Made by a program: the position numbers and the translations under genes. Under the pieces are notes generated by a model, which saw nothing but the letters and a program-made list of their open reading frames with translations, did not search any database and was not told where the DNA came from. Of a DNA stretch of 64,000 nt, positions 225 through 33,789 are shown in pieces (positions within the stretch are counted from its first letter, which is position 1; each line of letters opens with the position of its first letter). The stretch is from assembly GCA_016124195.1 (NCBI GenBank), contig WGOE01000009.1, positions 1 through 64,000 of the forward strand, written 5' to 3'. The DNA is from a bacterium (lineage in GTDB: Bacteria > Pseudomonadota > Alphaproteobacteria > Rhodobacterales > Rhodobacteraceae).

Positions 225-1817
225 TCATTTCTCCTTGGTCGAAACCATGAAATAGACCCATTCGCCCTTGAAGTCCGGGTCCCTGGCCCGCGCCGCGGCC
301 ACCCGGGTCTTCAGCCATTCGAGATAGGGGCCGGCCGGCTCGGTCAGGGGCCGCGTGCCGTCATAGAGCGGGGCAGAGGCGGCGAAGGCCGCCGCGATCT
401 CCTGACCATAGGGCGGGCCGATGGTCAGATGCAGAAAGGGTTCGCCCGCATCCGGCGCGCCGACCCGCATCGCCGACTTGGCCGCGCGCCGTTTCAGCGG
501 CACCTGATCATTCGGCACCAGATGGATCACGTTGCCATCCGCATCGAAGTAATCGACATAGACATAGGCGTCATAATCGGGCGCCGCGAGGTCCAGCACC
601 ATGGTCTGACCCGCCACATAGTTGAAGGTGCGGGCCTGGGCATCGGCTCCGATCAGGCGCGGGTTGGTCAACTGGTCCTGGCTTTGCGGCAGGCCCAGAT
701 CGGCAATGCCCGACAGGGCGCCGCATTGCGGCCGGGGCAGGATCACCATGGCGTCCTCGACCTTGATGCCCGCGCCCAGTTGCGCCTGCAGCGCGGCCAG
801 GATCGGCCCCTTCATCGCCGGGTCGGGCACATGGCCGCGCAGGTCCAGACTGCCGGTCTGCGGGTTGAATTCGGCCTGCAGCCGCGAGCAGGGGGCCGAA
901 CTGAGGATGGCGGCCAGCCCGTCATGCACGTCGTCAGCCTGCGCCGCCGCATCGCCGGGCCGCATGAACGAGGCGATGGCCTTGAGCGAGACCGGGTCGA
1001 TCGCGCCGCCCTCGCCGGCCCAGGCGAGCGTCGCCGTGACCTGATCGCCGGTGACCGGTGCCGGCACCAGGCTTTGAGTGCGGGGCGTGGCGCTGGCTGC
1101 GACCTGACCCGCCGGTTCGACGGCCGCGACGGGGGGGGCCGCAGCTTCGCTGGCCGTGACGCTTTGCGAGGGCAGGGCACTGGCCGCGACGGGCGGGGGC
1201 GGTGCCGCGGCCGCAAGGCTTTCGGCCGGGGGCGGCGTGGCCACGACGGCGTCGGTGGGGGCCGTGGTCTGCGCCAGAACGGTCGCAGGCAGGGTCGCGG
1301 CAGGTGTCAGAGACGGCGGCGGCGACTGGGCCAGGGTTGCGGCCGGGGGAGGTTCGGCGGCGGTGAGCGGCGTGGCGGGGGGCACTGCCGCAGCCAGCGC
1401 GGGCGGGGGCGGCGTCTCTGCCAGGGCCGTGGCTTGCGGGGCTTCTGCCGCGGTCACCGGGGGCGGCGCAGCCTCGTTCAGCGCCGTGACAGTGGGCGCG
1501 CTGACCTTGGCCATGGTCTGCGGCAGGGCTGCCGGTTCGGCCTGGCTTTGCCGCACCGTGCCCTGCGCCGCCGAGGCGCCTGTGGCCGGGGCGGTGCGGG
1601 CCTCTTCTCCTCCGGCCGCCTGCGGTTTGGCCTGCGATTGCGCGACCGACTGCGTCTCGATGTGGATTTCGGATTTGGGCGGCGGCTGGTCGGCCACCGG
1701 GCTGGGATTCAACAGGGCCAGCATCAGCGCCGCGGCCCCGGCATGGGCGGCCAGCGACAGGATCAGGCCCGCGCCATAACCGCTCCACGCAGGGCCGGGC
1801 GTGTCGGTCAGGCTCAT
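225..1817 (-). CDS. TonB-like, Pro/Ala-rich membrane-anchored protein with a DUF4384-like C-terminus (T6SS-linked)
   Basis: A 530-residue protein. It has one N-terminal membrane segment (about residues 14-36), then a long Pro/Ala-rich linker (about 45-245) such as TonB-type proteins use to span the periplasm. A folded region (about 270-360) follows, ending in an LPRPQC stretch, and then a DUF4384-like domain with YVDYFDADGNVIHLVPND. There is no typical TonB C-terminal domain. The ATG overlaps the stop of the upstream exbD-like gene by four bases, so it is the last gene of an ExbB-ExbD-ExbD operon. The PpkA kinase at 29813-32056 ends in a comparable module. By analogy with TonB or TolA it would carry force or a signal from the ExbBD complex across the periplasm; its partner is unknown. 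Confidence 0.7.
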   Translation of the reverse strand: MSLTDTPGPAWSGYGAGLILSLAAHAGAAALMLALLNPSPVADQPPPKSEIHIETQSVAQSQAKPQAAGGEEARTAPATGASAAQGTVRQSQAEPAALPQTMAKVSAPTVTALNEAAPPPVTAAEAPQATALAETPPPPALAAAVPPATPLTAAEPPPAATLAQSPPPSLTPAATLPATVLAQTTAPTDAVVATPPPAESLAAAAPPPPVAASALPSQSVTASEAAAPPVAAVEPAGQVAASATPRTQSLVPAPVTGDQVTATLAWAGEGGAIDPVSLKAIASFMRPGDAAAQADDVHDGLAAILSSAPCSRLQAEFNPQTGSLDLRGHVPDPAMKGPILAALQAQLGAGIKVEDAMVILPRPQCGALSGIADLGLPQSQDQLTNPRLIGADAQARTFNYVAGQTMVLDLAAPDYDAYVYVDYFDADGNVIHLVPNDQVPLKRRAAKSAMRVGAPDAGEPFLHLTIGPPYGQEIAAAFAASAPLYDGTRPLTEPAGPYLEWLKTRVAAARARDPDFKGEWVYFMVSTKEK

Positions 1818-2218
1818 CGCACCTCCGGCGAGACGATGATGGCGACATCCTTGGCCCCGGAGTCTTCGAGCCGGTTCACCAGGCCCAGGATGATGCGCAA
1901 GGGCGTGCCGCGGTCCGCGTTGATGCGGACAAGCGCTGCGGGGTTGCGCGCAAGCCTTGCCTTGACAGTGGCGGGCAGCGCCTCGGCCGCAAGGGGGGCG
2001 CCGTCCAGCGCCAATGCGCCATCGGTTCCGACCGAAAGGGTGATGCCGCCGCCGGGCAGGTTGGTGCCGGTCGTGCCGCGCGGCGGCAGCACCGCAAAGG
2101 GCGCCGTCGCATCGAGCCGGCCCACCATCATGAAGAAGACCAGCAGAAAGAAGGTCACGTCGATCAGCGCCACCACGGTTTCGCGTTCGGTCATGCGGTG
2201 CGGCCGGCGCAGTTTCAT
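1814..2218 (-). CDS. ExbD/TolR-type proton-channel subunit (second copy)
   Basis: A 134-residue protein with a single N-terminal membrane segment containing the expected Asp (VVALIDVTFFLLVFFMM), followed by a small periplasmic domain ending NRLEDSGAKDVAIIV. This is the plan of ExbD/TolR, which pair with ExbB/TolQ to use the proton gradient. Its ATG overlaps the stop of the other exbD-like gene, and its own stop overlaps the start of the TonB-like gene, so the products are probably made in balance. Two different ExbD-type proteins in one operon suggest a heteromeric stator. Its association with the T6SS is inferred from position only. Confidence 0.85.
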   Translation of the reverse strand: MKLRRPHRMTERETVVALIDVTFFLLVFFMMVGRLDATAPFAVLPPRGTTGTNLPGGGITLSVGTDGALALDGAPLAAEALPATVKARLARNPAALVRINADRGTPLRIILGLVNRLEDSGAKDVAIIVSPEVR

Positions 2219-2652
2219 GGCTGGGCCTCGATCCGGATCACCTTGACGCGCGTGGCGCCGGCGGCAGTCACCGTATCCATCACCGAGATCAGCGCCTGCA
2301 GATCCGCCCCGCCCGAAGGGAACAGAAGGATCGGCGTCAGGGGCTCTGCCGCGAGGCGGGTCTTGATCAGCGCCGAAAGGGCTGCGGCGTCCAGCCTCTG
2401 GCCCGCGACCTGGGCCTGCCCCTTGGCATCGATGCGGATCAGCAGCGTGGCCGGGGGCGTGGCCGGCATGGCGCTTGCAGCACCCGAAGCCTCCGGCGCC
2501 TCGTCCGATTTCTGCAGCGCCGGCACCATGTCGAGGTTGAGATAGCTCGACGTGATCATGAAGAAGAACAAGAGGATCATCATCACGTCGATCATCGAGA
2601 CGACCGACAGGGCTGTGGCGCGGCGGGCAGGGCGGCGAAGGGTGACGGCCAT
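2215..2652 (-). CDS. ExbD/TolR-type proton-channel subunit (first copy)
   Basis: A 145-residue protein from the ATG at 2652 (MAVTLRRPARR), chosen because a longer frame would run far into the exbB-like gene. A basic N-terminus precedes the membrane segment VVSMIDVMMILLFFFMITSSY with the conserved Asp. The periplasmic part includes an Ala/Pro-rich insert and ends with ISVMDTVTAAGATRVKVIRIE, which is typical of ExbD. The stop lies four bases inside the next gene. It should form a proton-conducting complex with the ExbB-like protein. Confidence 0.85.
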   Translation of the reverse strand: MAVTLRRPARRATALSVVSMIDVMMILLFFFMITSSYLNLDMVPALQKSDEAPEASGAASAMPATPPATLLIRIDAKGQAQVAGQRLDAAALSALIKTRLAAEPLTPILLFPSGGADLQALISVMDTVTAAGATRVKVIRIEAQP

Positions 2653-2653
2653 G

Positions 2654-3277
2654 CTACCCCCTGTGGCTGAGCGCCAGAAGCCGGCCCACCGCACTCTCGA
2701 TGCGCAGCGCCGCCGTCTCGACCCGTCCGGTCAGGAGATTGGCGGCCACCGCGGCCGGTATGGCGACCAGCAGCCCGCCCGCCGTGGTGATCAGCGCCTC
2801 CCAGATCCCGCCGGCCAGCACCGAGGCATTGGCCGAACCCTGCGCGGCCGACAGGTCCTGAAAGCTCTTGATCATGCCCAGGACCGTGCCCAACAACCCC
2901 AGAAGCGGCGCGATCATCGAGATGAGGTCCAGAAGCCTCAGCCAGGACGACATGGCGGCAATCTCTTCATTGCCGCGCCGCGTCGTCTCGGCCTCGACCG
3001 CGGCGAGGGGCAGGCCCGCATCCAGCCCCTGCAGCGCGGTCAGAAGCACGCGGTCGGCCGGCGCCTTGCCCAGAGCCGCGGCACGGATGGCCGCGTCGCG
3101 GTTGCCCGCCAGATAGCTGTCGATGATGCCGTCACGCACCTTGGCGCCGCGCGTGGTCGGCATCAGTTGCAGGGTCTTGGCCACGATCAGCGTCAGGCTC
3201 AGCACCGAAAGGCACATCAGCACGATGATCACCGGCAGGCTGGCGGCGGGAACCTGCGCCAGGATGCCGCCCATCAT
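2654..3277 (-). CDS. ExbB/TolQ/MotA-type proton-channel protein
   Basis: A 207-residue protein of the MotA/TolQ/ExbB family. It has an N-terminal membrane segment (about 14-35), a cytoplasmic stretch, and two C-terminal membrane segments containing [21 protein letters not shown] and [20 protein letters not shown], the classic family signatures. The start is set at 3277, where the ATG overlaps the stop of the upstream secreted-protein gene. It should form the ring around the ExbD dimers and pass protons to drive the TonB-like partner. Sequence alone cannot separate ExbB from TolQ. The operon lacks tolA, tolB and pal, so it is not the housekeeping Tol system. Confidence 0.88.
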
Positions 3278-3726
3278 TCCACCAGCGGGGCCGAGGTGCG
3301 GCTTTTCAGGTCGATCAGCGGGAAGCAATCGGTCTGCACGCCATTCTGCGGCTTGCAGACCGGGATGTCATGCATCAGCACCTGGCTGATGTCGGCGCAG
3401 GCGATCTGCGGGATCTCGAACAGTTTGAGCGTGGTGCGCGCGACCGGCAGCGGCGCCGCGTCGATCGACAGGAGCCGGTCAATGACCCCGTCCTTGTTGA
3501 AGATGGCCAACGACATCTGAAAGCCCTCGAACGAGGTGCCGGTGTCGTTGCGAAACAGGAAATAGGCGCGGCAGCCGCCGCCTGCGATTTCCTCGAACTT
3601 GTTGAGTTCGACCGCCAGCTTGCCACCGGGGGTCGGGGTCTCGGCCCAGACCGGCAGGGCCGGCGCAAGGCCCATGGCCGCGACCGCAATCCAGGCCGCC
3701 ACCCGTTCGATGATCTTGATCCGCAT
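3274..3726 (-). CDS. Secreted protein of unknown function, first gene of the ExbBD operon
   Basis: A 150-residue protein starting [12 protein letters not shown] at 3726. The N-terminus is a Sec-type signal peptide with an Ala-x-Ala-like cleavage region (LPVWAE). The mature part has four Cys residues ([24 protein letters not shown]), which could form two disulfides in the periplasm, and the phrase [26 protein letters not shown] suggests a small beta-sandwich. I do not recognise a named family. Its stop overlaps the exbB-like start, so it probably works with that complex. The ExbB start was chosen from this overlap. Confidence 0.7.
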
Positions 3727-4183
3727 TCTTGCAACCTCCCCTGTGCCGCGCCCCTGATTTCGGGCTGTCCGGTCCCGCCCGCCGTCCGGCAGGAGTGAAC
3801 GCCCGCGACCTGATTCCGTCAACGCAAGATTGTCATCATCGCGACAAGGGGGGCAGTCTTTGGGCGTACCTCCCCGATTTCAGCGCCCGCGGGCCGGCCC
3901 GACCCGCGATGTCAACCCGGACCGCCCCGGATTTCGCGGCTAAGCCTCAACAATGCAAGGGAAATGCCTCCAATGCGAAGAGACGATTGACAGGAGGGGT
4001 CATCCTGTCATCAACTACCGAAAGAGAATCCGACTATACGAAAGAATAGGGTCGGATTGCGAAGGGAACGGGTGACCTGCAGGAGACCAAACGCCACTGA
4101 CTTGGCGTGCGTTTGCGTTCACGGCGGCGGCAACCGGATGAAAACAGAATAAGCCCGGCACGAAGCGGGTTCGGGAGGCTGTT
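3727..4183. promoter_or_regulatory. Divergent promoter region between the ExbBD operon and the T6SS operon, with two inverted repeats
   Basis: This 457-bp gap separates divergent operons. It holds an inverted repeat TGACAGGA-N7-TCCTGTCA (3988-4010) overlapping a TTGACA -35-like box (3987-3992), and a second one, AATCCGAC-N16-GTCGGATT (4027-4058), that encloses TATACG (4035-4040). No -10 box sits at ideal distance from the TTGACA, so transcription starts are not assigned. GGGAGG just before 4184 is the tssA ribosome-binding site. Nothing else was seen. Confidence 0.45.
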
Positions 4184-5224
4184 ATGGATTTGAACGCGCT
4201 TCTGGCCGCCCGCGAAAGCGACGGCGCAAGCGGGGAGAATCTCGAATACGACGCTGACTTCATGGAGTTGCAGCGCCTGTCCCTGCCGGGTGAGGAACGC
4301 CAGGTCGGCAACGAAATCGTGCCCGGCGAGGATCCTGATTTTGCCGATGTCGAAGGCCGCGCCCTTGCCGTGCTGGAACGCAGCCACGATCTGCGCGCTG
4401 CCGTCATCCTGGCCGATGCGCGGCTGAATATCCGCGGCCTTGCGGGCTTTGCCGATGCGGTGGCCTATATCCGCGGTGTACTGGAACAGCATTGGGCGAC
4501 CTGTCATCCGCAACTGGACGCCGATGACGACGATGACCCGACGATGCGGATCAATGCGGTGGCGGGCCTCAACAGCGCGCTGACCGCGCGTTATCTGCGC
4601 CGCACGCCGCTGACGCAAAGCCGCACCTTCGGCCGCGTCACGCTGCGCGACATCCAGATCGCCACCGGGGAAATACCTGCGCCGGAAGGCAAGACCCCCG
4701 CCTTCGACCGTGCCACCATTGCCGCCGCCTTTGCCGACACCGCGCCCGATGTGGTCAGCGCGCTTCTGGCCGAGGCCAAGCGGTTGCAGGCCGACCTGCG
4801 CGGCATCGAGGCGGTCTTTGCCGCCCAGACGCCGGGCCAGGGGCCCGACCTCGACGACCTGCGCAAATCGGTCGCCCAGATGGTGCGCCATCTGAGCGAG
4901 AATGCCGCCGAGGACGCCGCGGCCGAACCCGCCGAGGGAGAAGACGCCGCCGAAGACGACAGTTCCGCCGCGCCCGTGGCCCGGCGCGGCGGTGGCGGTG
5001 GCCCGATGGGCTCGATCGAGACGGCGCAGGATGCGCGCGGCGCCATCGACCGCCTGATCGACTATTTCAAGCGCAACGAACCCTCCAGTCCGGTCCCGAT
5101 CATCCTCGAACGGGCCAAGCGGCTGGTGGGCGCGGATTTCCTGACGATCATCAAGGATCTGGCCCCTGACGGGATGGATTCGGTGCGAAACATCGGCGGG
5201 ATCAAGGACGAAGATGACGACTAA
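4184..5224 (+). CDS. tssA: T6SS protein TssA (ImpA-type)
   Basis: A 346-residue protein with an ImpA N-terminal domain (about residues 5-125), recognisable by DADFMELQRLSLPGEERQVG near the start and YIRGVLEQHWATCHPQLDADDD. An acidic/Ala-rich linker (about 240-265) leads to a short C-terminal helical region ending in DEDDD. TssA proteins prime and cap the growing tail and connect baseplate and sheath. It is the first gene of the large plus-strand operon, preceded by a good GGGAGG site, and is followed after 84 bases by tssB. The short C-terminal part is of the ImpA type rather than the long VgrG-like or VasJ-like types. Confidence 0.92.
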   Translation: MDLNALLAARESDGASGENLEYDADFMELQRLSLPGEERQVGNEIVPGEDPDFADVEGRALAVLERSHDLRAAVILADARLNIRGLAGFADAVAYIRGVLEQHWATCHPQLDADDDDDPTMRINAVAGLNSALTARYLRRTPLTQSRTFGRVTLRDIQIATGEIPAPEGKTPAFDRATIAAAFADTAPDVVSALLAEAKRLQADLRGIEAVFAAQTPGQGPDLDDLRKSVAQMVRHLSENAAEDAAAEPAEGEDAAEDDSSAAPVARRGGGGGPMGSIETAQDARGAIDRLIDYFKRNEPSSPVPIILERAKRLVGADFLTIIKDLAPDGMDSVRNIGGIKDEDDD

Positions 5225-14969: not shown

Positions 14970-15077
14970 GCGCCAATCAGGGCCGGGGATGCCGCGGGGC
15001 GTTCCGGCCGGGGGGGGGGGCCGCGACAGGGATGTTGCGGTTCGCGGGCCCGATAACCGTTGGATAGCGAGGCGAAG

Positions 15078-16862
15078 ATGGCAAAAGGCGTCGGACTGGA
15101 ACTGAACTTCGGCTCTTTGGAGGCGGCGCGCCCGCAAGGGGCCACGCCCGCGCGGTTCCGCATCGCGCTGATGGGCGACTTTTCCGGCCGCGCCGCGCGG
15201 GGCGAGGTCGAGATCGGCGCGGATCTGGCCGCGCGGCGCCCGATCAAGCTGGACATCGACACGCTGGACAAGGTGATCAAGGGTTTTGCCACCGATCTGA
15301 TCCTGCCCATCGGCAAGGACGGCGCGGGGATCGAGGTCAGCCTGGGTTCGATCGACGATCTGCACCCGGACGAATTGTTCGGCAATGTGGACATGTTCGC
15401 CGAACTGGTGGCCTTGAAGCGCAGGCTTTCCAGCGGCAAGACGGCGGCGAATGCGATGGGCGACCTGAAAGCCTGGGGTGAGGAGTTCGGCCGCAAGATC
15501 GCGCCACCCGCCCGCAAATCGGCCGGCAATGCGGTGCCCTCGGACCGCAGGCTTTCCGATTTCGCGGCTCTGGTCGGCGGCAATGTCGCGCGCAAGGCCG
15601 AGGCCTCTTCGACTGACGACCTCTTGGCGCGCATCGTCGGGCCCTATGTGCAGGCCTTGCCCGACCCCGATGCCGCAGACCTGCAAGTGGCCGCCGAAGA
15701 GGCCCTGGCCGGGGCGATGCGCCTTGTGCTGCATCACCCGGAATTCCAGTCGGTCGAGGCGCAGTGGCGCATGCTGGACCTGATCGCCCGCTCGGTCGAG
15801 ACGGATCAGAAGCTGGACATCGTGCTCTATGACATCTCGGCCGAGGAACTGGCAGCGGATCTGGCGGCCGGGGACGATCTGGCCGAAAGCGGCATCTGCC
15901 AGTTGCTGCGTGAAAGCACGCCGGACGGGCGCGGGCCCTTCTCGGCGGTTTGCGGGCTTTACACGTTTGAGGAAACCCCGCCCCATGCCGAACTGATCGG
16001 GCGGATGGCGCAGGTCGCGGCCCATGTGCGCGCGCCCTTCTTTGCCGCGATCACGCCGACCTTTCTGGAAACCGACATCAAGGACCGCCACCCCTTGGTG
16101 GCCGAGGCCTGGGATGCGCTGCGTGCGATGCCGGAGGCCGGCTATATCGGTCTGGTCAGCCCGCGCTTCCTGCTGCGCAGGCCCTATGGCGCCAAGTCCG
16201 AACCGATCTATGAATTCGACTTCGAGGAATTCACCGAAGCCGAGGGGCTTTCGGGCATGCTCTGGGCCAATCCGGTGGCGCTGGTGGCGATCCTTCTGGC
16301 GCAGAGTTTCCGCAAGAACGGGCCGGGGCTGGGGCTTGGCTCGGTCATGACACTGGGCGGCATGCCCTATCACTATGTCAAGGACCGCTTTGGCGATCAG
16401 GTGGCCTTGCCCTGCACCGAACGCAACCTGACCCAGGCCAAGACGCAGGCCACCATCGCGCGCGGCTATATGCCGGTGGTCTCGGTCAAGGGGCGCGACG
16501 AGGTGCGGCTTGGCAGCTTTCAAGGCCTGAACGGCAAGACGATCCTGGGTTTCTGGGCCGATGTGCCGGCGATGGCGCCGCGCCCCAAACCCGCGCCGGC
16601 CGCGGCTGGTGCTGCGGCTGCCCCGGCCTCTGGCGCGGCGCCGGCGGGGGCGGCTGCGCCTGCGGGTCCGGCTGAAGAGACAGCCGCCGCAGCGCCGGCC
16701 GAGGCGCTCGATGCCGAACTCGAGGCGCTTCTGGCCAGTTTTGGCGATGACTTCGGCTCTGCAGCCCCAGCCGCCGCCGCCGAGGCCGCCCCCGAAGCGC
16801 CGCCCGCCGCCGCCGAAGAGGAAATGGATGCCGATCTTGCCGCCCTTCTGGCCAGCCTGTGA
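15078..16862 (+). CDS. T6SS sheath-like fusion: TssB-like domain joined to TssC-like domain (ImpD-type)
   Basis: About 594 residues from the ATG at 15078 (MAKGVGLELNFG) behind GAGGCGAAG; a TTG at 15060 is an alternative. Residues about 20-140 match TssB in order: FRIALMGDFSG, IKLDIDTLDKVIKG, VSLGSIDDLHPDEL and LVALKRRLSS. Residues about 175-490 match TssC: LHHPEFQSVEAQWRMLDLI, AAHVRAPFFAAITPTFLET and PRFLLRRPYGAKSEPIYEF. The tail (about 500-594) is Ala/Pro-rich with two similar helices, LDAELEALLASFGDDF and MDADLAALLASL. Separate tssB and tssC genes also exist, so this is a second sheath-type protein. Imp clusters have a second TssC-like gene (ImpD); the joined TssB part is notable. Its role could be baseplate-proximal sheath, sheath cap or regulator. 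Confidence 0.82.
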   Translation: MAKGVGLELNFGSLEAARPQGATPARFRIALMGDFSGRAARGEVEIGADLAARRPIKLDIDTLDKVIKGFATDLILPIGKDGAGIEVSLGSIDDLHPDELFGNVDMFAELVALKRRLSSGKTAANAMGDLKAWGEEFGRKIAPPARKSAGNAVPSDRRLSDFAALVGGNVARKAEASSTDDLLARIVGPYVQALPDPDAADLQVAAEEALAGAMRLVLHHPEFQSVEAQWRMLDLIARSVETDQKLDIVLYDISAEELAADLAAGDDLAESGICQLLRESTPDGRGPFSAVCGLYTFEETPPHAELIGRMAQVAAHVRAPFFAAITPTFLETDIKDRHPLVAEAWDALRAMPEAGYIGLVSPRFLLRRPYGAKSEPIYEFDFEEFTEAEGLSGMLWANPVALVAILLAQSFRKNGPGLGLGSVMTLGGMPYHYVKDRFGDQVALPCTERNLTQAKTQATIARGYMPVVSVKGRDEVRLGSFQGLNGKTILGFWADVPAMAPRPKPAPAAAGAAAAPASGAAPAGAAAPAGPAEETAAAAPAEALDAELEALLASFGDDFGSAAPAAAAEAAPEAPPAAAEEEMDADLAALLASL

Positions 16863-19151: not shown

Positions 19152-19754
19152 ATGAATGATCGTTATTCCGGTCTGACCAAGCTGATCAAACAGCCCGCGG
19201 CGCGGCTTTTGGCCAATGCCAATGCCGAGCTGGAAACCCCGGTCGCGGCCCCCGCCTCGGCGCCGGTCGAGGTGGTGCTGCGCGAACTGGACCAGAAGGG
19301 CGCGCTGATCGACATCATGCGGCTTTTGTCGATTGCGCTGCCGGCGCGCGAAAGGGTGTGGTGGTCCTGCCTTGCGGCGCGCGACCTGCTGGAGCCGGGC
19401 GCCAAGGTGCCGCCGCCACTGGCCGCCGCCGAGGCCTGGGTCTTCAAGCCCTCCGAGGAAAACCGCGCCATCGCCCATCACGCCGTCCAGCACGCCTCGA
19501 TGAAGGACGACACCAAGCACTGCGCCATGGCGGTGCAGTTCCACGACGGCACGCTGGGGCCGGGCGATCTGGCCCAGCATCCCGCGCCGCCCGGCGGGTC
19601 CGAGGTGTCGGCCTTTGCGATGAACATCGTGGCCATCGCCAAATCCGGCAAGATGCTGGACGAGGCGGCCGACCTGATGATCGAACGCGCGCTGGATATC
19701 GCGCGCGGCGGATCGGGGCGCGTCGAAGCGGCCAAATCCAAGGAAGGAGCCTGA
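19152..19754 (+). CDS. VgrG-PAAR-linked accessory protein (DUF6931-like)
   Basis: A 200-residue protein with no signal peptide or membrane segment. Features include VEVVLRELDQKGALIDIMRLLSIALPARERVWWSCLAARDLL and later AKSGKMLDEAADLMIERALDIARGGSG. It resembles small proteins often placed between vgrG and PAAR genes, which I recall as DUF6931; that name comes from memory and is not checked. It may be an adaptor or chaperone for spike loading. It starts 11 bases after the vgrG stop and ends two bases before the PAAR start. Confidence 0.6.
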   Translation: MNDRYSGLTKLIKQPAARLLANANAELETPVAAPASAPVEVVLRELDQKGALIDIMRLLSIALPARERVWWSCLAARDLLEPGAKVPPPLAAAEAWVFKPSEENRAIAHHAVQHASMKDDTKHCAMAVQFHDGTLGPGDLAQHPAPPGGSEVSAFAMNIVAIAKSGKMLDEAADLMIERALDIARGGSGRVEAAKSKEGA

Positions 19755-27600: not shown

Positions 27601-28220
27601 CCGCGGCCGACATCGGGCTGGCTGATTTCAGCAAGCTCTTCGGGCCGGGCGGGTTGATCGACACCTTCATGACCACCAACCTCAAAGACATGATCGACAC
27701 GTCGAAAAAGCCCTGGACCTGGAAGACGGTGAACAACACCGATCTGGGGATATCGCCGGCCGTGCTGGCCCAGTTGCAGGCCGCCTCGGAAATCAAGGAG
27801 GCCTTCTTCTCGAGCGGGGCGCCAGCGCCTTCGGTCTCGTTCCAGATCACGCCGGTGGCGCTGGATTCGAATGCGACCAAGGTGCAACTGCTGATCGACG
27901 GCACCCAGGTGAACTTTTCCCAGAACGCGGGCCAGCCCCTGCCCACGGCGGTGACCTGGCCCGGCTCGGTCGGGGTGGCGCAGATCGCCTTCGAGCCGGC
28001 CTCTTCCGCGGCCGACAGCGGCGTGCGCAAGGACGGGCCATGGGGCTGGTTCCGGCTGCTCGACGGCGCCGATGGCCGGCCGACCAGTGCGCCCGACCGC
28101 CGCCGCATCATCTTCAACGTCGGAGGACGCCTGGCCATCTTCGAGATGCAGACAAGTTCGGTCGTCAACGCCTTTGCCCTGCCGGCGTTGAAAAGCTTCT
28201 CCTGTCCCGCGTCGTTCTGA
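24609..28220 (+). CDS. tssM: T6SS inner-membrane protein TssM (IcmF/VasK)
   Basis: A 1203-residue TssM. Two N-terminal membrane segments lie at about 8-36 and 52-73, and a third at about 448-468. The cytoplasmic part between them has Walker A GPPGAGKTTAIVNSG (about 135) and the DTAGRYTTQES motif, so nucleotide binding is likely retained. The long periplasmic part ends with the TssM C-terminal beta domain, which reaches the outer membrane ring. No separate TssJ lipoprotein gene is visible in this window, as in other imp-type systems. The stop overlaps tagF. Confidence 0.94.
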   Translation: MKFLKALGRFLISIYFILLVVTLILSVCVWFFSPYIGTDAFRPFDGTFGRWMFILVLWVICAVTILIIWLVRRHEEKAVEEDIVKGVDEKAPENEVVTAELSELRDKMRRAITKLKKSKGGRRSLYELPWYVMIGPPGAGKTTAIVNSGLQFPLADEFGKEAIGGVGGTRNCDWWFTDNAVLIDTAGRYTTQESDAEADNAAWLGFLNLLKKHRVRQPINGAMIAISLSDLSMQDETTQKGHARAVKRRLAELREKLGVRFPVYILFTKADMIAGFAEFFDNLGKEEREQVWGFTLPLPKGKSEASPIAAFDTEFSALITQLNAQLIDRMQQETDHQRRSLIAGFPAQVASVRGVAQAFLTEVFSENRYDDRQMLRGVYFTSGTQEGTPIDRLMMGMARTFGIGRQALGTGRGTGRSFFLTRLFNDVLFPEAGLVSADDKVERRYKWMKRGAIAATAVVALSMTGLWARSYYGNKDLLAEVEGEVTSYQTAAAAVPGDPIADSDASITVPALNILRSMPVNPIPPTIDKASASPFSPQTKLTWGLYTGSGLANQTGISYRAALNTIFLPRLLLRLESSMQSNINSPDVLYDTLKVYLMLGLQGPMNADEVRSYMAADWQLAYPGDENKQLRDDLMFHLSALISQPMQEIGLNGPLVDQVQGILAQLPIAQRVYNGIIHSAEAAAIPAFRLSDIGGPNLTKAFVRTSGKPMTEGIDGIFTYDGFNKVFKEQALGVAQNIQRDSWVLGTKVKTDQSPAALAAITRDVLDLYYNDYIARYDGLLGDIDVVPLASLRQAVDVTNILSGPTSPIVNILNAVDKETSLTATSAPIDTKTLATETKGSIGQDVVDDTFSVRQKMLLAALQSAATAAGQPPPKPPGAYVEERFAWLHDLVKRDDKQPSQLDNLMASLTLVYQDMNKIAFRGASAGPNAGADSLAALQQAAAQVQGPLARWASQITTGGAGITAEGTRAAINQAWTANVLPFCQQATAKAYPFNKGAAADIGLADFSKLFGPGGLIDTFMTTNLKDMIDTSKKPWTWKTVNNTDLGISPAVLAQLQAASEIKEAFFSSGAPAPSVSFQITPVALDSNATKVQLLIDGTQVNFSQNAGQPLPTAVTWPGSVGVAQIAFEPASSAADSGVRKDGPWGWFRLLDGADGRPTSAPDRRRIIFNVGGRLAIFEMQTSSVVNAFALPALKSFSCPASF

Positions 28221-28897
28221 TGGGAGGATTTGGCGCTTTCGGCAAGATGCCGGCGCTTGGCGATTTCTTTCGCCTCAATGCCGCATCCGAAGTGGTGGCG
28301 CCCTGGGACATCTGGGTGCAGCAGGTGCTGCAGGCGGGGCGGGCCAGCCTTGGGCCGCGCTTCGACGACTGCTACATGTCGGCCCCGATCTGGCGCTTTG
28401 CGCTGGCGCCGGGGGTGGCGGGGGCGCAGGGCGTGCTGGGGGTGCTGATGCCCTCGGTCGACCGGGTCGGACGGCAGTTTCCGTTGACGCTTTTCGCCCA
28501 GACCGGGGCGCAGGATCAGACCCCGCTGCGCCATCTGATCTGGCAGGCGCCGCTCTACGAAGCGCTGGAGGCGCTGGCGCTCGATTGCCTTGACGACGCC
28601 ATGACGCGCGAGGCGCTGACGGCGCGGCTGGCGCCCCTGGCGCTGACGGCGACCGGGGGGGCCAGCACGATCGGCACTTTCGGCGCGGCACTTGTCCTGT
28701 CCAACACGGCGCCCGAGGCGCTCTGCGCCGATCTTGCGCTGGATCTGGCGGGCGGGCAGATGCAGCGCTCCTGCGCCTGGAGCGCCACGATCGAGGGGGC
28801 GGCCCGGCTGATCCTGACCAGCGCCCTGCCACAGGCCGACGTGGCGCATTTCCTGTTTGATCTTGCCGAGTTTTCCCAAGCCGGAGCCGGACGATGA
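28220..28897 (+). CDS. tagF: T6SS regulator TagF (ImpM)
   Basis: A 225-residue protein starting at the ATG at 28220, which shares its first base with the tssM stop. It begins MGGFGAFGKMPALGDFFRL, the standard TagF opening (G-x-x-GK-x-P-x-x-GDF), and has the PSVDRVGRQFPLTLFA motif. TagF blocks T6SS assembly after translation and is relieved by the PpkA pathway. The last four bases overlap pppA. In some bacteria TagF is fused to the PppA phosphatase; here they are separate but overlapping. Confidence 0.93.
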   Translation: MGGFGAFGKMPALGDFFRLNAASEVVAPWDIWVQQVLQAGRASLGPRFDDCYMSAPIWRFALAPGVAGAQGVLGVLMPSVDRVGRQFPLTLFAQTGAQDQTPLRHLIWQAPLYEALEALALDCLDDAMTREALTARLAPLALTATGGASTIGTFGAALVLSNTAPEALCADLALDLAGGQMQRSCAWSATIEGAARLILTSALPQADVAHFLFDLAEFSQAGAGR

Positions 28898-29610
28898 CGA
28901 CACCGACGATCCGTTTCAACGCCCGCACCCATGTCGGCCGCGTGCGCAAACACAACGAGGATGCGATCCTCGTCCTGCCTGATCAGCAGATCTGGATCGT
29001 CTCGGACGGCATGGGCGGGCATGAGGGCGGCGATTATGCCAGCCGCGTGGTGGTGGATGCGGTGGCGGTCCTGCCGCCCAACATGGCGCCGACCGAAAAG
29101 CTGGGCGCCATCCGACACGCGCTGCAGATGGCCCATGCGACCATCGTGGCCGAGGCCGCCCGGCGCGGCGCGGTTATGGGCGCCACGGTGGTGGCGCTGG
29201 TGCTGGCCGATGGCCATTTCGGCGCGCTCTGGGCCGGGGACAGCCGGCTTTACCGGCTGCGCGACGGCAAGATCGACCTGCTGACCTCGGATCACTCGCT
29301 GGTCGCGGCCTTTGTCGAATCCGGCCAGATGACCTGGGACGAGGCGGGCAAGCATCCCCAGGCCAATGCCATCACCCGCGCCGTGGGCGTGGGGGAGGAA
29401 CTGGAGCTTGACAAGATCCGCGGCGATGCGCTGCCGGGCGATCGGTTCCTCTTGTGCTCGGACGGGCTCAGCAAATATGCCAGCATCCCCGAACTGGGTG
29501 CCATGCTGGGCAAGATGCCGCTGGAAGTGGTGACGGACAACCTCGTGCAGTTCGCGCTGGACCGGGGCGGGGCCGACAATGTCTCGGTCATCGTGGTGGA
29601 TGTGATCTGA
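28894..29610 (+). CDS. pppA: T6SS PP2C-type phosphatase PppA (Stp1-like)
   Basis: A 238-residue PP2C phosphatase with the metal-binding motifs DGMGGHEGGDYAS, WAGDSRLYRLRDG, LLCSDGLSKY and GADNVSVIVVDV. It removes phosphates added by PpkA, for example on the FHA partner, and so switches the T6SS off. It is the last gene of the plus-strand operon, overlaps tagF by four bases, and faces the convergent ppkA across a terminator region at 29652-29780. Confidence 0.94.
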   Translation: MTTPTIRFNARTHVGRVRKHNEDAILVLPDQQIWIVSDGMGGHEGGDYASRVVVDAVAVLPPNMAPTEKLGAIRHALQMAHATIVAEAARRGAVMGATVVALVLADGHFGALWAGDSRLYRLRDGKIDLLTSDHSLVAAFVESGQMTWDEAGKHPQANAITRAVGVGEELELDKIRGDALPGDRFLLCSDGLSKYASIPELGAMLGKMPLEVVTDNLVQFALDRGGADNVSVIVVDVI

Positions 29611-29812: not shown

Positions 29813-32056
29813 CTATTTCGCGATGCTGGTCAGGATGCGGCTGTTCAGCGACAGGATCTGCAGATTGCCGCTGTCCACCGCCTGTTTTAGCGCATCGGCG
29901 AAGCCCCCGACCGATTCCGTTGTGGGGCGCAATTCGGGAAAGAGCGGCTTTTCCGAATGGATGACGATCACCTTGGACTTGCCCAGCGTCGTGGGATCGA
30001 CGGTGAAGGCGATGTGGGACGGGTCCTTGTTGTCCGACAAGGGATAGGCGATGCGCACTTTCGCCTCGCCGGTGGCGCCCTTGCGCAGGTCGGCCACGGC
30101 ATTGTCCTTGCGGTTGAGGTTGGGCAACAGATGATAGACATTGCCCGACACATCGATGATCGCGACCGAGACATAGCCGGTCGTCACATCCGCAGGGATG
30201 ATCAGATCGATCACCGGGTTTTCGCCGACGAAATAGCGGCCCGAGGGGTTGTCGTCCGAACTGTCGCCATAGCCGAAGGCGAAAGAGAACTTGCCTTCGT
30301 GGGCGGCGGGCAGGGTGGTTTCGATCTGGCAAAGCGCGGGGTTCAGAAGCTCGATCTTCAGGTCGACCTTGCGCTCGGGGGCGATGGCGCTGATCGCGTC
30401 GAAAAGTTGCACCTGCTTTTCGGGGCGGGCCAGGCGGCCGGTCACGGTGATCGTCTCGCCCTTGCCATAGCCCACGGCGGGCGGGTCGGTCAAAGACAGC
30501 GGGCCGCAGTCGGCCATCTGGGTCAGGACCGGCGCGATATCGGCGGCGGTCAGGAACTGCGGCACCTTTTGCGCCACATCGATCTGGGCCTTGCCTTGCA
30601 GCACGCCGGGCAGCGTGCCGATTGCCGCCAGCACGGCGGTCTGCACGGCCGGGTCGGTGGTCGAGCCGGTCACGGCCGCCTGATTTCCCGTCACCGCGAC
30701 GCGCCAGCTGTCGACCTTGTTCAGCGCCTTGACCACGCTCAGCACATCGGTGCCCCAGCTGGCCCCGATGGCGCCCGAGGCGAGCGTCAGGTCGGAGGTT
30801 CCGCCGATCGCCGCCATCGCCTGGGTCAGGGCGGCCGAGACTTCGGGTGAGGGCACGTCGCCCACGGCGCGCGGCGCGCCATTGGCCGGGCGTTCGATGA
30901 TCAGCGCATAGGGGTCCGCCACCGGCAGCGCCGGTTTCATGAACCGGTCAAGCGCGCCGGAAAACCAGGCTCCGGCGCCGCCGCCGATCAGAACCAGAAG
31001 AACCAGGACCAGGATGAGGCCGCTGCGCGATCTGGTGGCGGGGGCAGGGGCAGCAGGCGGCGGTGCGGCGGGTTTGGTTGCGGCCTGGGCTGCGGGTCGC
31101 GGCGCTGTGGCATAGGGATTGACCGGGGCGGCGGTGGCCAGTGCGGCGGCGGACGGCGCGGCGGTGGCTGGACCGGGCGCTGCGGCGCGCGGCACCACGA
31201 CGGTGCGATCCTCCATCGCGGGCGGTGCCTGCATCCCCTGATCTATGGCGCGCAGCACCTCATCGGCCGACTGGAACCTTTTGGCCGGGTCCGGGTCGGC
31301 CATCTTCTCGATCAGGCTTTTGAGCGGCTCCGGCACGCCCGAAGTATCCAGCCGCTCTTGCTTGCGGCGGACGACCTCCATCGGATTGGCGCCGGGATCG
31401 GGACGTTTGCCACGGAAGGTGGCCAGCAGGAGGGCGCCCAGCGAATAAAGGTCCGACCGCGTGTCGGTGTTGCCGGCCAGTTGTTCGGGCGCGGCATAGG
31501 CGTATTTGCCGGCGAATTCGTTGCCCACGATGGTCTGCGCACCCGGATTGGCATCCTTGGCGATGCCAAAGTCGATGATGACGGCCTGATCGGCCTTGCC
31601 GCCCTTGAGGATGATGTTGTCGGGCGACAGGTCGCGGTGGATGATGCGCCGGTCATGGGCCACCTTCAGCCCGTCGACCACGCGCCGGCAGACCCGCACC
31701 AGATCATCGGCCGAAAGCCCGCCCTGTTTCAGAATGGAATCGAGCCCCGGCCCGTCGACATAATCCATCACCAGATAGACAAGGCCCTCGGGCGTGCGGT
31801 GATTTTCCGAATAGCGCACCACCGCGTCATGACGGATCTCGCGGATTTCCTCTTCGCGGCGCATCAGGGTCAGGAAGGCCTCGTCCCCGGCGAATTCGGA
31901 TTTGAGGACCTTGATCGCGACGAACCGGCCCGAAATGTCGTTGCGGGCCTTGTAAACCTCGGACGTGCCGCCGCGCCCGAGGATGGTTTCGATCCGGTAA
32001 GTGCTGTTCAGAAGATCGCCCGGCTGGAAGATATCGCCCGCTCTTGATTCCGCCAT
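29813..32056 (-). CDS. ppkA: T6SS Ser/Thr protein kinase PpkA with periplasmic DUF4384-like sensor module
   Basis: A 747-residue protein from the ATG at 32056 (MAESRAGDIFQPGD). The kinase domain (about 20-280) has the Gly-rich loop LGRGGTSEVYKA, the catalytic IIHRDLSPDNIIL, IIDFGIAKD and APEQLAGN. A Pro/Ala-rich linker leads to one membrane segment (about 352-372, LILVLVLLVLIGGGAGAWF). The periplasmic part holds repeated BON-like folds and a DUF4384-like end with YVSVAIIDVSGNVYHLLPNL. It should phosphorylate the FHA pathway in response to an envelope signal. The periplasmic end resembles that of the TonB-like protein at 225-1817. Confidence 0.93.
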   Translation of the reverse strand: MAESRAGDIFQPGDLLNSTYRIETILGRGGTSEVYKARNDISGRFVAIKVLKSEFAGDEAFLTLMRREEEIREIRHDAVVRYSENHRTPEGLVYLVMDYVDGPGLDSILKQGGLSADDLVRVCRRVVDGLKVAHDRRIIHRDLSPDNIILKGGKADQAVIIDFGIAKDANPGAQTIVGNEFAGKYAYAAPEQLAGNTDTRSDLYSLGALLLATFRGKRPDPGANPMEVVRRKQERLDTSGVPEPLKSLIEKMADPDPAKRFQSADEVLRAIDQGMQAPPAMEDRTVVVPRAAAPGPATAAPSAAALATAAPVNPYATAPRPAAQAATKPAAPPPAAPAPATRSRSGLILVLVLLVLIGGGAGAWFSGALDRFMKPALPVADPYALIIERPANGAPRAVGDVPSPEVSAALTQAMAAIGGTSDLTLASGAIGASWGTDVLSVVKALNKVDSWRVAVTGNQAAVTGSTTDPAVQTAVLAAIGTLPGVLQGKAQIDVAQKVPQFLTAADIAPVLTQMADCGPLSLTDPPAVGYGKGETITVTGRLARPEKQVQLFDAISAIAPERKVDLKIELLNPALCQIETTLPAAHEGKFSFAFGYGDSSDDNPSGRYFVGENPVIDLIIPADVTTGYVSVAIIDVSGNVYHLLPNLNRKDNAVADLRKGATGEAKVRIAYPLSDNKDPSHIAFTVDPTTLGKSKVIVIHSEKPLFPELRPTTESVGGFADALKQAVDSGNLQILSLNSRILTSIAK

Positions 32057-32136
32057 GCCGTTCCTCTGCCTTGCGCCCGTGCCTGCGGCCAAGCCCCGAT
32101 CGCGGCTGGACCCGTTCTACCAGATGTCCGGGCGGC

Positions 32137-32706
32137 CTAGCTGCCGACCTGGAATTCAACCCGGCGGTTCACATCGGCCTTGGGGTCCTTGGGATCGACG
32201 GGAAACGCCTCGCCCACGCCCACGGCCACCAGTTTTTCGGCCGGGATGCCGCAGTCATCGACCAGATGCCGCTTGACCTCTTCGGCGCGCAGCTTCGACA
32301 GGTTCTCGTTGTAGCTGGCGCTGCCCGAGCTGTCTGTATGGCCGATGATCTTGAACTTCGGGATGTCCGAGGCCTTGACCACGTCGCAGAGCGTGGAAAG
32401 CTTGCTCATCTCGGCCTCGCTGACGGCGGCGCTGTCGAAGGCGAAGTTGATCTGGATATTGACCTGGGCGCTGGGGTCCATCGCCACATAGGTCGTGTTG
32501 GCGGGCAGCTTGGCGTTGGGGTCCGTGGCCGGGGCCGTGCCTTCCGATGGGGCGATGACCAGCCCCCGCGTCTGCTGCTGAGCCGCGAATTTGGCCGCGA
32601 GTTGGGCCGCTGTCAGGGTGCTGTCATCCTGGGCGAAAGCGGCGACCGTGCTGCCCGCAAGCAGCATCAGCGCGGCCGCGCCCGCAAAGCGTAGACGATG
32701 TGTCAT
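32137..32706 (-). CDS. OmpA-family peptidoglycan-binding periplasmic/outer-membrane protein
   Basis: A 189-residue protein with a signal peptide (about 1-25, cut after VAAFA) and a C-terminal OmpA-like domain (about 85-189). The domain contains INFAFDSAAVSEAEMSKL, KIIGHTDSSGSASYNENLSKLRAEEV and DVNRRVEFQVG, with the Asp and Arg that bind peptidoglycan. There is no lipobox. It lies upstream of ppkA on the same strand with an 80-base gap and may be co-expressed. It could help anchor the T6SS or sense cell-wall state, but a general role is equally possible. Confidence 0.85.
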   Translation of the reverse strand: MTHRLRFAGAAALMLLAGSTVAAFAQDDSTLTAAQLAAKFAAQQQTRGLVIAPSEGTAPATDPNAKLPANTTYVAMDPSAQVNIQINFAFDSAAVSEAEMSKLSTLCDVVKASDIPKFKIIGHTDSSGSASYNENLSKLRAEEVKRHLVDDCGIPAEKLVAVGVGEAFPVDPKDPKADVNRRVEFQVGS

Positions 32707-32937
32707 GGCATTCCTTTCGCAATTCGAAGTGATTGCAATAGGCGGACATTAGAGCAGCTTCTGGCACTTCACAACGCTTTTGGGGCCGGGTCTCGCATCC
32801 GTGCGGGCAGGGTCAAAGCCCGGGCGGGCGGCATCGGCCAATCGTGACTTGCCAGAAGCCCCTCTTGCAGGATTAATGCGCGGGCGTGGCGCGCGCAGCC
32901 ACCGCAGCCTTGCCTCTGCCGTCAAATCAGGTGCCCC
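32707..32937. other. Divergent intergenic region between the OmpA-like gene and the M15 peptidase gene
   Basis: The 231 bases hold no ORF of note. ATTCCTTTCG just outside the OmpA start reads CGAAAGGAAT on the minus strand, a good ribosome-binding site for that gene. No clear -35/-10 pair was recognised. Confidence 0.4.
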
Positions 32938-33789
32938 TTGCGTCTTCTGCCCGCCATCCTGCTGTCTGTCTCGGTTCTCATCGCAGCCCTGATCGTCGTG
33001 TCGATTCCGCTGTTCTTTCCGGCCCACAGCGGGGGGGGCGGATCGGTCGACAACCAGGCCCGCATCGACATCGAGCTGATGCATGGCGATCTCGACAACC
33101 TGACCGAGGCGGTCAACCAGCTGCGCGATCAGGTCGATGCGCTGGAAGACCGCGTCAACAAGATCGAGGTCGGCACGACCCCGCCCGATGCCTCGGGCCA
33201 GGCGCTGCAGATCGTGGGGCCCAGCGGGCCGGGCAGCATCACCGGCAACTATGCCCAGGTCGTGCTGGTCGCCGACCGGCGCAACCTCAACAAGGGCCTG
33301 ACCGTGCCCACCCCGTCCTTCATGATCGAAAAGTTCGGCCCGCCGCGCGACGATCTGTCCGACACCTGTCAGCCGATGACCAATCCGCGCCTGTCGGCCC
33401 TTCTGGAGGATGCGACAGTCGGCCCGGTCAAGGTCAAGATGCTCAAGCCCGCCATCGAATCGCTGCAGACGGTGTTCAACAACATCCAGCGCGCCGACCC
33501 CGAGCTTTACGCCCGCATCAATACCTCGGGCTCGCTTTGCGTGCGCTATATCCGCGGCTCGACGACGTCGGTGTCGAACCATTCCTTCGGCACGGCGGTG
33601 GACCTCAACATCGACGGCGTGCTGGACACGCTGGGCGACGGACGCACCCAGCTTGGCCTGACCATCATGTCTGATTTCTTCAATTCCGAGGGCTGGGTCT
33701 GGGGCGCCGCCTATGGCCGCGAGGATTCGATGCATTTCGAAGTCAGCGAAGAAAAGATCAACGAGTGGATCGCCGCCGGCAAGATCTGA
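32938..33789 (+). CDS. Membrane-anchored M15-family peptidoglycan peptidase (TagX-like)
   Basis: A 283-residue protein starting with TTG at 32938. One N-terminal membrane segment (about 4-26) is followed by a short coiled coil (about 45-75, NLTEAVNQLRDQVDALEDRV) and a C-terminal M15/VanY-type domain. The domain keeps the zinc motif SNHSFGTAVDLN and the second HFE motif (REDSMHFEV). Such enzymes cut peptide bonds in peptidoglycan. Acinetobacter TagX is an inner-membrane-anchored peptidase of this kind needed to pass the T6SS through the wall. The gene borders the T6SS locus, so a similar role is inferred. No ribosome-binding site is obvious. Confidence 0.75.
   Translation: MRLLPAILLSVSVLIAALIVVSIPLFFPAHSGGGGSVDNQARIDIELMHGDLDNLTEAVNQLRDQVDALEDRVNKIEVGTTPPDASGQALQIVGPSGPGSITGNYAQVVLVADRRNLNKGLTVPTPSFMIEKFGPPRDDLSDTCQPMTNPRLSALLEDATVGPVKVKMLKPAIESLQTVFNNIQRADPELYARINTSGSLCVRYIRGSTTSVSNHSFGTAVDLNIDGVLDTLGDGRTQLGLTIMSDFFNSEGWVWGAAYGREDSMHFEVSEEKINEWIAAGKI

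Follow-up and report, generated by a model that had tools for sequence, protein, structure and literature searches.

A TonB-like protein with a PpkA-sensor-type tip marks a Ton-type operon subtype associated with type VI secretion in Alphaproteobacteria

The type VI secretion system (T6SS) cluster of a member of the Rhodobacteraceae (GCA_016124195.1, a 4.26-Mb assembly; contig WGOE01000009.1, positions 1-64,000, here called the window) lies beside a five-gene operon for a Ton-type ExbB-ExbD motor. Its TonB-like protein ends, in place of the TonB C-terminal domain (TonB_C), in a tip that is a homologue of the periplasmic sensor of the T6SS kinase PpkA of the same lineage, and this tip-bearing operon subtype is encoded with, and co-occurs with, the T6SS. 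The roles described so far for ExbB-ExbD motors lie chiefly in transport, motility and maintenance of the envelope. Based on the sequence comparisons described below, the operon is read here, with moderate confidence, as encoding a dedicated proton-powered Ton-type motor that would feed envelope signals into the PpkA pathway, as an analogue of TagQRST. The operon and the spacer next to it consist of the following features:

3726-3274, minus strand: small secreted cysteine protein, an open reading frame of 150 amino acids with an N-terminal hydrophobic, signal-like segment and four Cys
3277-2654, minus strand: ExbB-type proton-channel subunit (Pfam MotA_ExbB, E 1.5e-29; PDB TolQ/ExbB, E 1e-12)
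2652-2215, minus strand: ExbD-1 (Pfam ExbD, E 2.8e-19; PDB 7ajq ExbD, E 1.9e-8), with the transmembrane (TM) Asp in SMIDV
2218-1814, minus strand: ExbD-2 (Pfam ExbD, E 9.1e-18; PDB 7ajq ExbD, E 1.8e-4), with the TM Asp in LIDV
1817-225, minus strand: TonB-like spanning protein of 530 amino acids, with an S-x3-H TM helix, a post-TM strand segment, a Pro/Ala-rich linker and a BON-like plus DUF4384 tip
3727-4183, no strand: divergent spacer of 457 bases between the operon and tssA

The open reading frames and Pfam matches bear out the initial annotation of the five genes, one for a cysteine protein, one for an ExbB-type channel, two for ExbD subunits and one for a TonB-like protein that lacks TonB_C, and the operon does face tssA, a plus-strand gene beginning at 4184. 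The four-base overlaps described for all junctions are present at three of them (ATGA), but a single base separates ExbB from ExbD-1, provided that ExbD-1 begins with the ATG at 2652. No sigma-70-type promoter match was found in the spacer. In the TonB-like protein, Pfam matched DUF4384 at residues 414-481 (E 1.3e-7) and, weakly, BON_like at 325-361, and gave no TonB_C match; in its structural model (predicted local distance difference test, pLDDT, 77.7) the tip is predicted to be a BON-like domain (CdsD/YscD, Z 7.8/6.8) followed by an Ig-like DUF4384 sandwich, both of low specificity. The operon is not a Tol-Pal system, as the NCBIfam TolQ/TolR models match its proteins far below cut-off and there is no tolQ-tolR-tolA-tolB-pal context, nor does it belong to the T6SS core, as its proteins have no Tss family match and many T6SS genomes are without it.

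The association with the T6SS was assessed with a profile (A2) built on the C-terminal domain of the TonB-like protein and searched in 396 genomes of the family. It matched 53 genomes, 45 of them strongly, and all 45 were TssF-positive, compared with a base rate of 95/396 (hypergeometric 6e-33, kinship ignored). The strong match is within 20 kb of tssF, at a distance of 5-14 kb, in 36 of the 45; in most of the remaining nine, match and tssF are on different contigs, several of them at the end of a contig, with one pair at 30 kb and one (G469) 750 kb apart on one contig. In two Rhodospira genomes the set is unlinked to the T6SS, which is nonetheless present. Three arrangements were observed: divergent from tssA, co-directional upstream of tssA, and convergent with ppkA-pppA-tagF-tssM. 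At L092 the set is co-directional with tssA and 57 bases upstream of it; here and at L111 (G413, G765) it reads straight into tssA, and at L091 it adjoins ppkA. In a second T6SS lineage (L066, L093, L095-L104), the set is located downstream of clpV or beside tssM-tagF-pppA-ppkA, the TonB-like gene is convergent with ppkA, and the cysteine gene lies 10-14 kb from tssF in 12 genomes.

The identity of the tip was indicated by the A2 profile itself, which gave weak second matches in 37 of the 45 genomes, in long frames of about 700-890 codons; all 20 such loci that were fetched (18 from the family and two from outside) encode PpkA. Profile-profile comparison (hhalign) related the lineage-a tip to the lineage-a PpkA sensor (E 5.7e-15, 98%) and to the PpkA of other Alphaproteobacteria (E 1.9e-29), and the lineage-c tip to the lineage-c PpkA sensor (E 6.8e-19, 99%). 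The cross-comparisons, tip a with tip c, tip a with PpkA c and tip c with PpkA a, were not significant, nor did two unrelated families or five controls with shuffled columns reach significance. The same BON-type NCBIfam model matches both the TonB-like protein and the PpkA of the window. The initial annotation had proposed a possible dedicated module, proton-driven or envelope-sensing, that is not among the standard T6SS parts; this proposal is supported for the tip-bearing subtype, given that all 45 genomes with the domain have a T6SS, that there are three arrangements in two lineages and that the tip is homologous to the PpkA sensor, and is not supported for the five-gene set generally, as discussed below.

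A mechanism can be proposed on this basis. One ExbB and two different ExbDs would form an inner-membrane motor, which would couple to the TonB-like rod through the S-x3-H TM helix and the strand-forming segment directly after it. In place of the receptor-gripping TonB_C stands the BON-like plus DUF4384 tip, of the same family as the PpkA periplasmic sensor, and the motor would most likely extend this tip, or presumably cycle it, through the periplasm. There the tip would encounter either PpkA itself or a ligand or partner shared with PpkA, and the secreted disulphide-type protein may serve as an adaptor. A change in envelope state, contact or proton-motive force would then release or dimerise PpkA, which would phosphorylate Fha (and/or TssL), and T6SS assembly would start. 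We infer from the shared sensor domain that the tip acts through PpkA; that it senses the envelope, which way control runs and what part the secreted protein plays are inferred as well. A bolder proposal, offered only tentatively, is that T6SS lineages may have taken over a Ton operon and joined the sensor domain of their own PpkA to TonB, perhaps on two independent occasions, creating a powered mechanical probe of the envelope or the neighbour that triggers the kinase, a sensor and not a transporter.

Several observations count against this interpretation. The PDB matches of the tip model are weak only. BON-like and DUF4384 domains also occur outside PpkA, and the shared homology may therefore mean a common ligand and not contact with PpkA. 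The TonB-like domain is missing from about 16 of some 60 lineage-a T6SS genomes, several of which retain a PpkA of the type in question; the module is therefore accessory. As for repeated capture, the domain tree separated the tip and PpkA of lineage c from the tips of lineages a and b with the PpkA of lineage a and others (Shimodaira-Hasegawa-like approximate likelihood-ratio test, SH-aLRT, 99, in a quick tree with long branches there), and in the ExbB trees lineages a and c fell in separate supported clades, the lineage-c clade being the closer of the two to TonB-type operons from the same family. Two independent captures of a Ton operon are thus a possibility that these trees favour without significance: a single origin was rejected neither for all T6SS-linked TonB tips (approximately unbiased test, p-AU 0.104) nor for the T6SS-linked ExbBs (p-AU 0.32), and repeated capture is not proven.

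The motor residues were compared among the T6SS-linked copies. Both channel Thr of ExbB are conserved in every copy, and in each motor one ExbD or both carry the TM Asp. Both ExbDs keep it in lineage a. The lineage-c motors (L093, L095-L098, L100-L102, L104, L066; L066 and L099 from a separate reading) have the Asp in ExbD-1 and an Asn in ExbD-2. They represent a naturally occurring ExbD heterodimer with a single Asp, in which motor asymmetry could be tested. The S-x3-H motif was found in 33 of 36 TonB-like proteins (SLAAH at L073) and the other three have Asn; a proline-rich linker is present in all 36, and the TM helix is followed, at the position of the TonB D-box (PMC10907165), by a short segment resembling a strand, as compared by eye. 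The loss of the Asp from lineage-c ExbD-2, together with the common domain family of tip and PpkA, would agree with a tip that acts as a decoy, sequestering the PpkA ligand or heterodimerising with PpkA to keep it off, with the proton drive vestigial. Such a decoy is improbable, however, because many genera have kept the channel residues along with one or two TM Asp, the TM His of the TonB-like protein and the strand segment after its TM helix, which indicates that the motor is under selection.

A direct role in the T6SS membrane complex that bypasses PpkA was considered in connection with TssJ, which has no match (PF12790) anywhere in the window's genome. The motor-driven TonB-like protein could act on TssL/TssM, on peptidoglycan or on the outer membrane, opening a path or taking the place of the absent TssJ; BON-like domains are also building blocks of secretion rings, as in the CdsD and YscD proteins matched by the tip. 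TssJ was found in 3 of 35 lineage-a/b operon genomes and 0 of 10 of lineage c, compared with 13 of 26 T6SS genomes without the operon (Fisher 5e-5, kinship ignored). On the other hand, 13 of the T6SS genomes tested have neither TssJ nor the operon, Rhodospira and lineage b have both, and the tip matches PpkA, not TssJ or TssM. As a stand-in for TssJ, the operon is therefore neither necessary nor sufficient; strict replacement of TssJ as the sole role is not supported, and a structural or energising role in general is rather unlikely. Most of the Rhodobacteraceae T6SS genomes tested are without TssJ, the 13 mentioned above among them.

The parental family of the operon is an ordinary Ton operon, and the possibility that such an uptake system merely sits beside the T6SS by chance has to be weighed. 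The cysteine-protein profile (A1) matched 44 of 387 genomes of the class and TssF 68 of 387, with both in 13; the cysteine gene is close to tssF in only two of these 13, the window's genome and G212. Many of the fetched loci are cysteine protein-ExbB-ExbD-ExbD-TonB operons. In the relatives L039, L041 and L063 the TonB proteins have genuine TonB_C domains, and a receptor-like gene adjoins the L063 operon. The five-gene set in general is thus an alphaproteobacterial Ton operon, mostly T6SS-independent; for the set as a whole this goes against the T6SS link that the initial annotation had drawn, and the cysteine protein was rejected as a T6SS marker, since it marks Ton operons in general. For the tip-bearing subtype, chance placement of an uptake system is very unlikely. 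The window's genome, 100% complete by estimate, has no match to the TonB-dependent receptor barrel (PF00593) and no TonB_C protein, TonB_C is absent from the T6SS-linked TonB-like proteins, the tip co-occurs exactly with the T6SS, and separate TonB_C proteins are present in 13 of 20 operon-bearing genomes searched. The other MotA_ExbB loci of the window's genome are one with an adjacent ExbD-type gene (L001) and one 299-residue frame.

The cysteine protein itself has four Cys that are invariant across 10 relatives (family alignment A1), and the window copy has no Pfam or NCBIfam match. Its AlphaFold model (pLDDT 80.6) is a predicted beta-sandwich, for which the best structural match was E. coli IrmA (5ek5, Z 11.6, 2.9 A over 108 residues). 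A TssJ-like fold was not adopted, as TssJ was not among the structural matches listed, an absence that proves nothing. The IrmA-fold four-cysteine secreted protein also accompanies Ton operons at L033, L035-L037, L039-L042, L044 and L045, and it may be a general, undescribed Ton partner in Alphaproteobacteria.

Compared with known systems, the operon resembles the Ton system in its homologous ExbB/ExbD with channel residues, the S-x3-H TM helix, the strand at the D-box position (PMC10907165) and the proline-rich linker, and it shares gene order and the cysteine protein with two-ExbD alphaproteobacterial Ton operons. It has the ExbB Thr and ExbD TM Asp of a Ton system and differs in lacking TonB_C and a cognate receptor, in carrying the PpkA-type tip and in being tied to the T6SS. 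TagQRST is a periplasmic, lineage-specific input to PpkA (PMC11881912). Like TagQRST-PpkA of the Pseudomonas aeruginosa H1-T6SS, the operon encodes an envelope module of several proteins, one that is linked to T6SS genes and putatively upstream of PpkA; TagST, however, is an ABC-type (ATP-binding cassette) ATPase pair with the lipoprotein TagQ and TagR, whereas here a proton motor and a TonB-like rod are present. Family scans of the window's T6SS-cluster proteins gave no TagQRST-type match, no search aimed at TagQRST having been made, and none is known in the Agrobacterium model (PMC3953482). RtkS of Serratia (PMC6082577) and TssW of Acidovorax (PMC12607579) are periplasmic or outer-membrane partners of PpkA, and are likewise lineage-specific, T6SS-encoded envelope proteins acting with its periplasmic domain. 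Unlike the operon, they are single proteins without an energising motor, and no shared sensor domain was reported for them; RtkS is disulphide-dependent (PMC6082577), and the cysteine protein may be so too. GldLM is also a proton motor serving a secretion system, the type IX system (PMC8986121), but it belongs to different protein families and the secretion system is a different one. Ton proteins of Azospirillum are induced together with the T6SS and are encoded elsewhere in that genome. No paper linking an ExbB/ExbD/TonB-like module or DUF4384 to T6SS function was found in the open-licence literature searched.

The sensing that tells T6SSs when and where to fire is understood chiefly in a few model species. 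In Alphaproteobacteria, a TonB with a kinase-type sensor tip would tie T6SS activation directly, and in a way that can be tested, to proton-motive force and the mechanics of the envelope, and an ExbB/ExbD/TonB annotation near a T6SS need not imply nutrient uptake.

The neighbouring cluster, which had been described as a complete T6SS, contains genes A, B, C, D (Hcp), E, F, G, H, I (VgrG), K, L, M, fha, tagF, pppA and ppkA, and is thus complete in its core apart from TssJ. It is arranged as follows:

4184-28220, plus strand: T6SS core, with tssA, B, C, hcp, tagJ/impE, tssE, F, G, clpV, a second sheath-like gene, vgrG, DUF6931, fha, tssK, tssL and tssM (Pfam/NCBIfam)
28040-29610, plus strand: tagF and pppA, a PP2C phosphatase (Pfam TagF_N, E 5e-39; PP2C_2, E 1.6e-14; TIGR03373)
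29813-32092, minus strand: ppkA, encoding a kinase, a TM segment and a periplasmic BON-like/DUF4384 domain (Pkinase, E 4.5e-40; DUF4384, E 0.003; ArfA_OmpATb_N, E 3e-5 at 465-581)
32137-32706, minus strand: OmpA-like protein of peptidoglycan-anchor type beside ppkA (Pfam OmpA, E 2.5e-17)

The second sheath-like gene (15060-16862, 600 amino acids), between clpV and vgrG, has weak VipA (33-128) and partial VipB (213-488) matches, far below the NCBIfam cut-offs, and resembles a TssB-TssC fusion. The DUF6931 protein is encoded at 19152-19754, after vgrG, and a 328-amino-acid protein without any family match at 32749-33735, beyond the ppkA/OmpA-like pair. In related loci a caspase-like protein, with cysteine pairs in a C-terminal segment, is encoded convergently to the TonB-like gene (L004, 13242-15209; L006, 13489-15138; L007, 13137-14690). 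The window contig ends before the equivalent position; in L004 and L006 the caspase-like gene is followed by an OmpA-like match.

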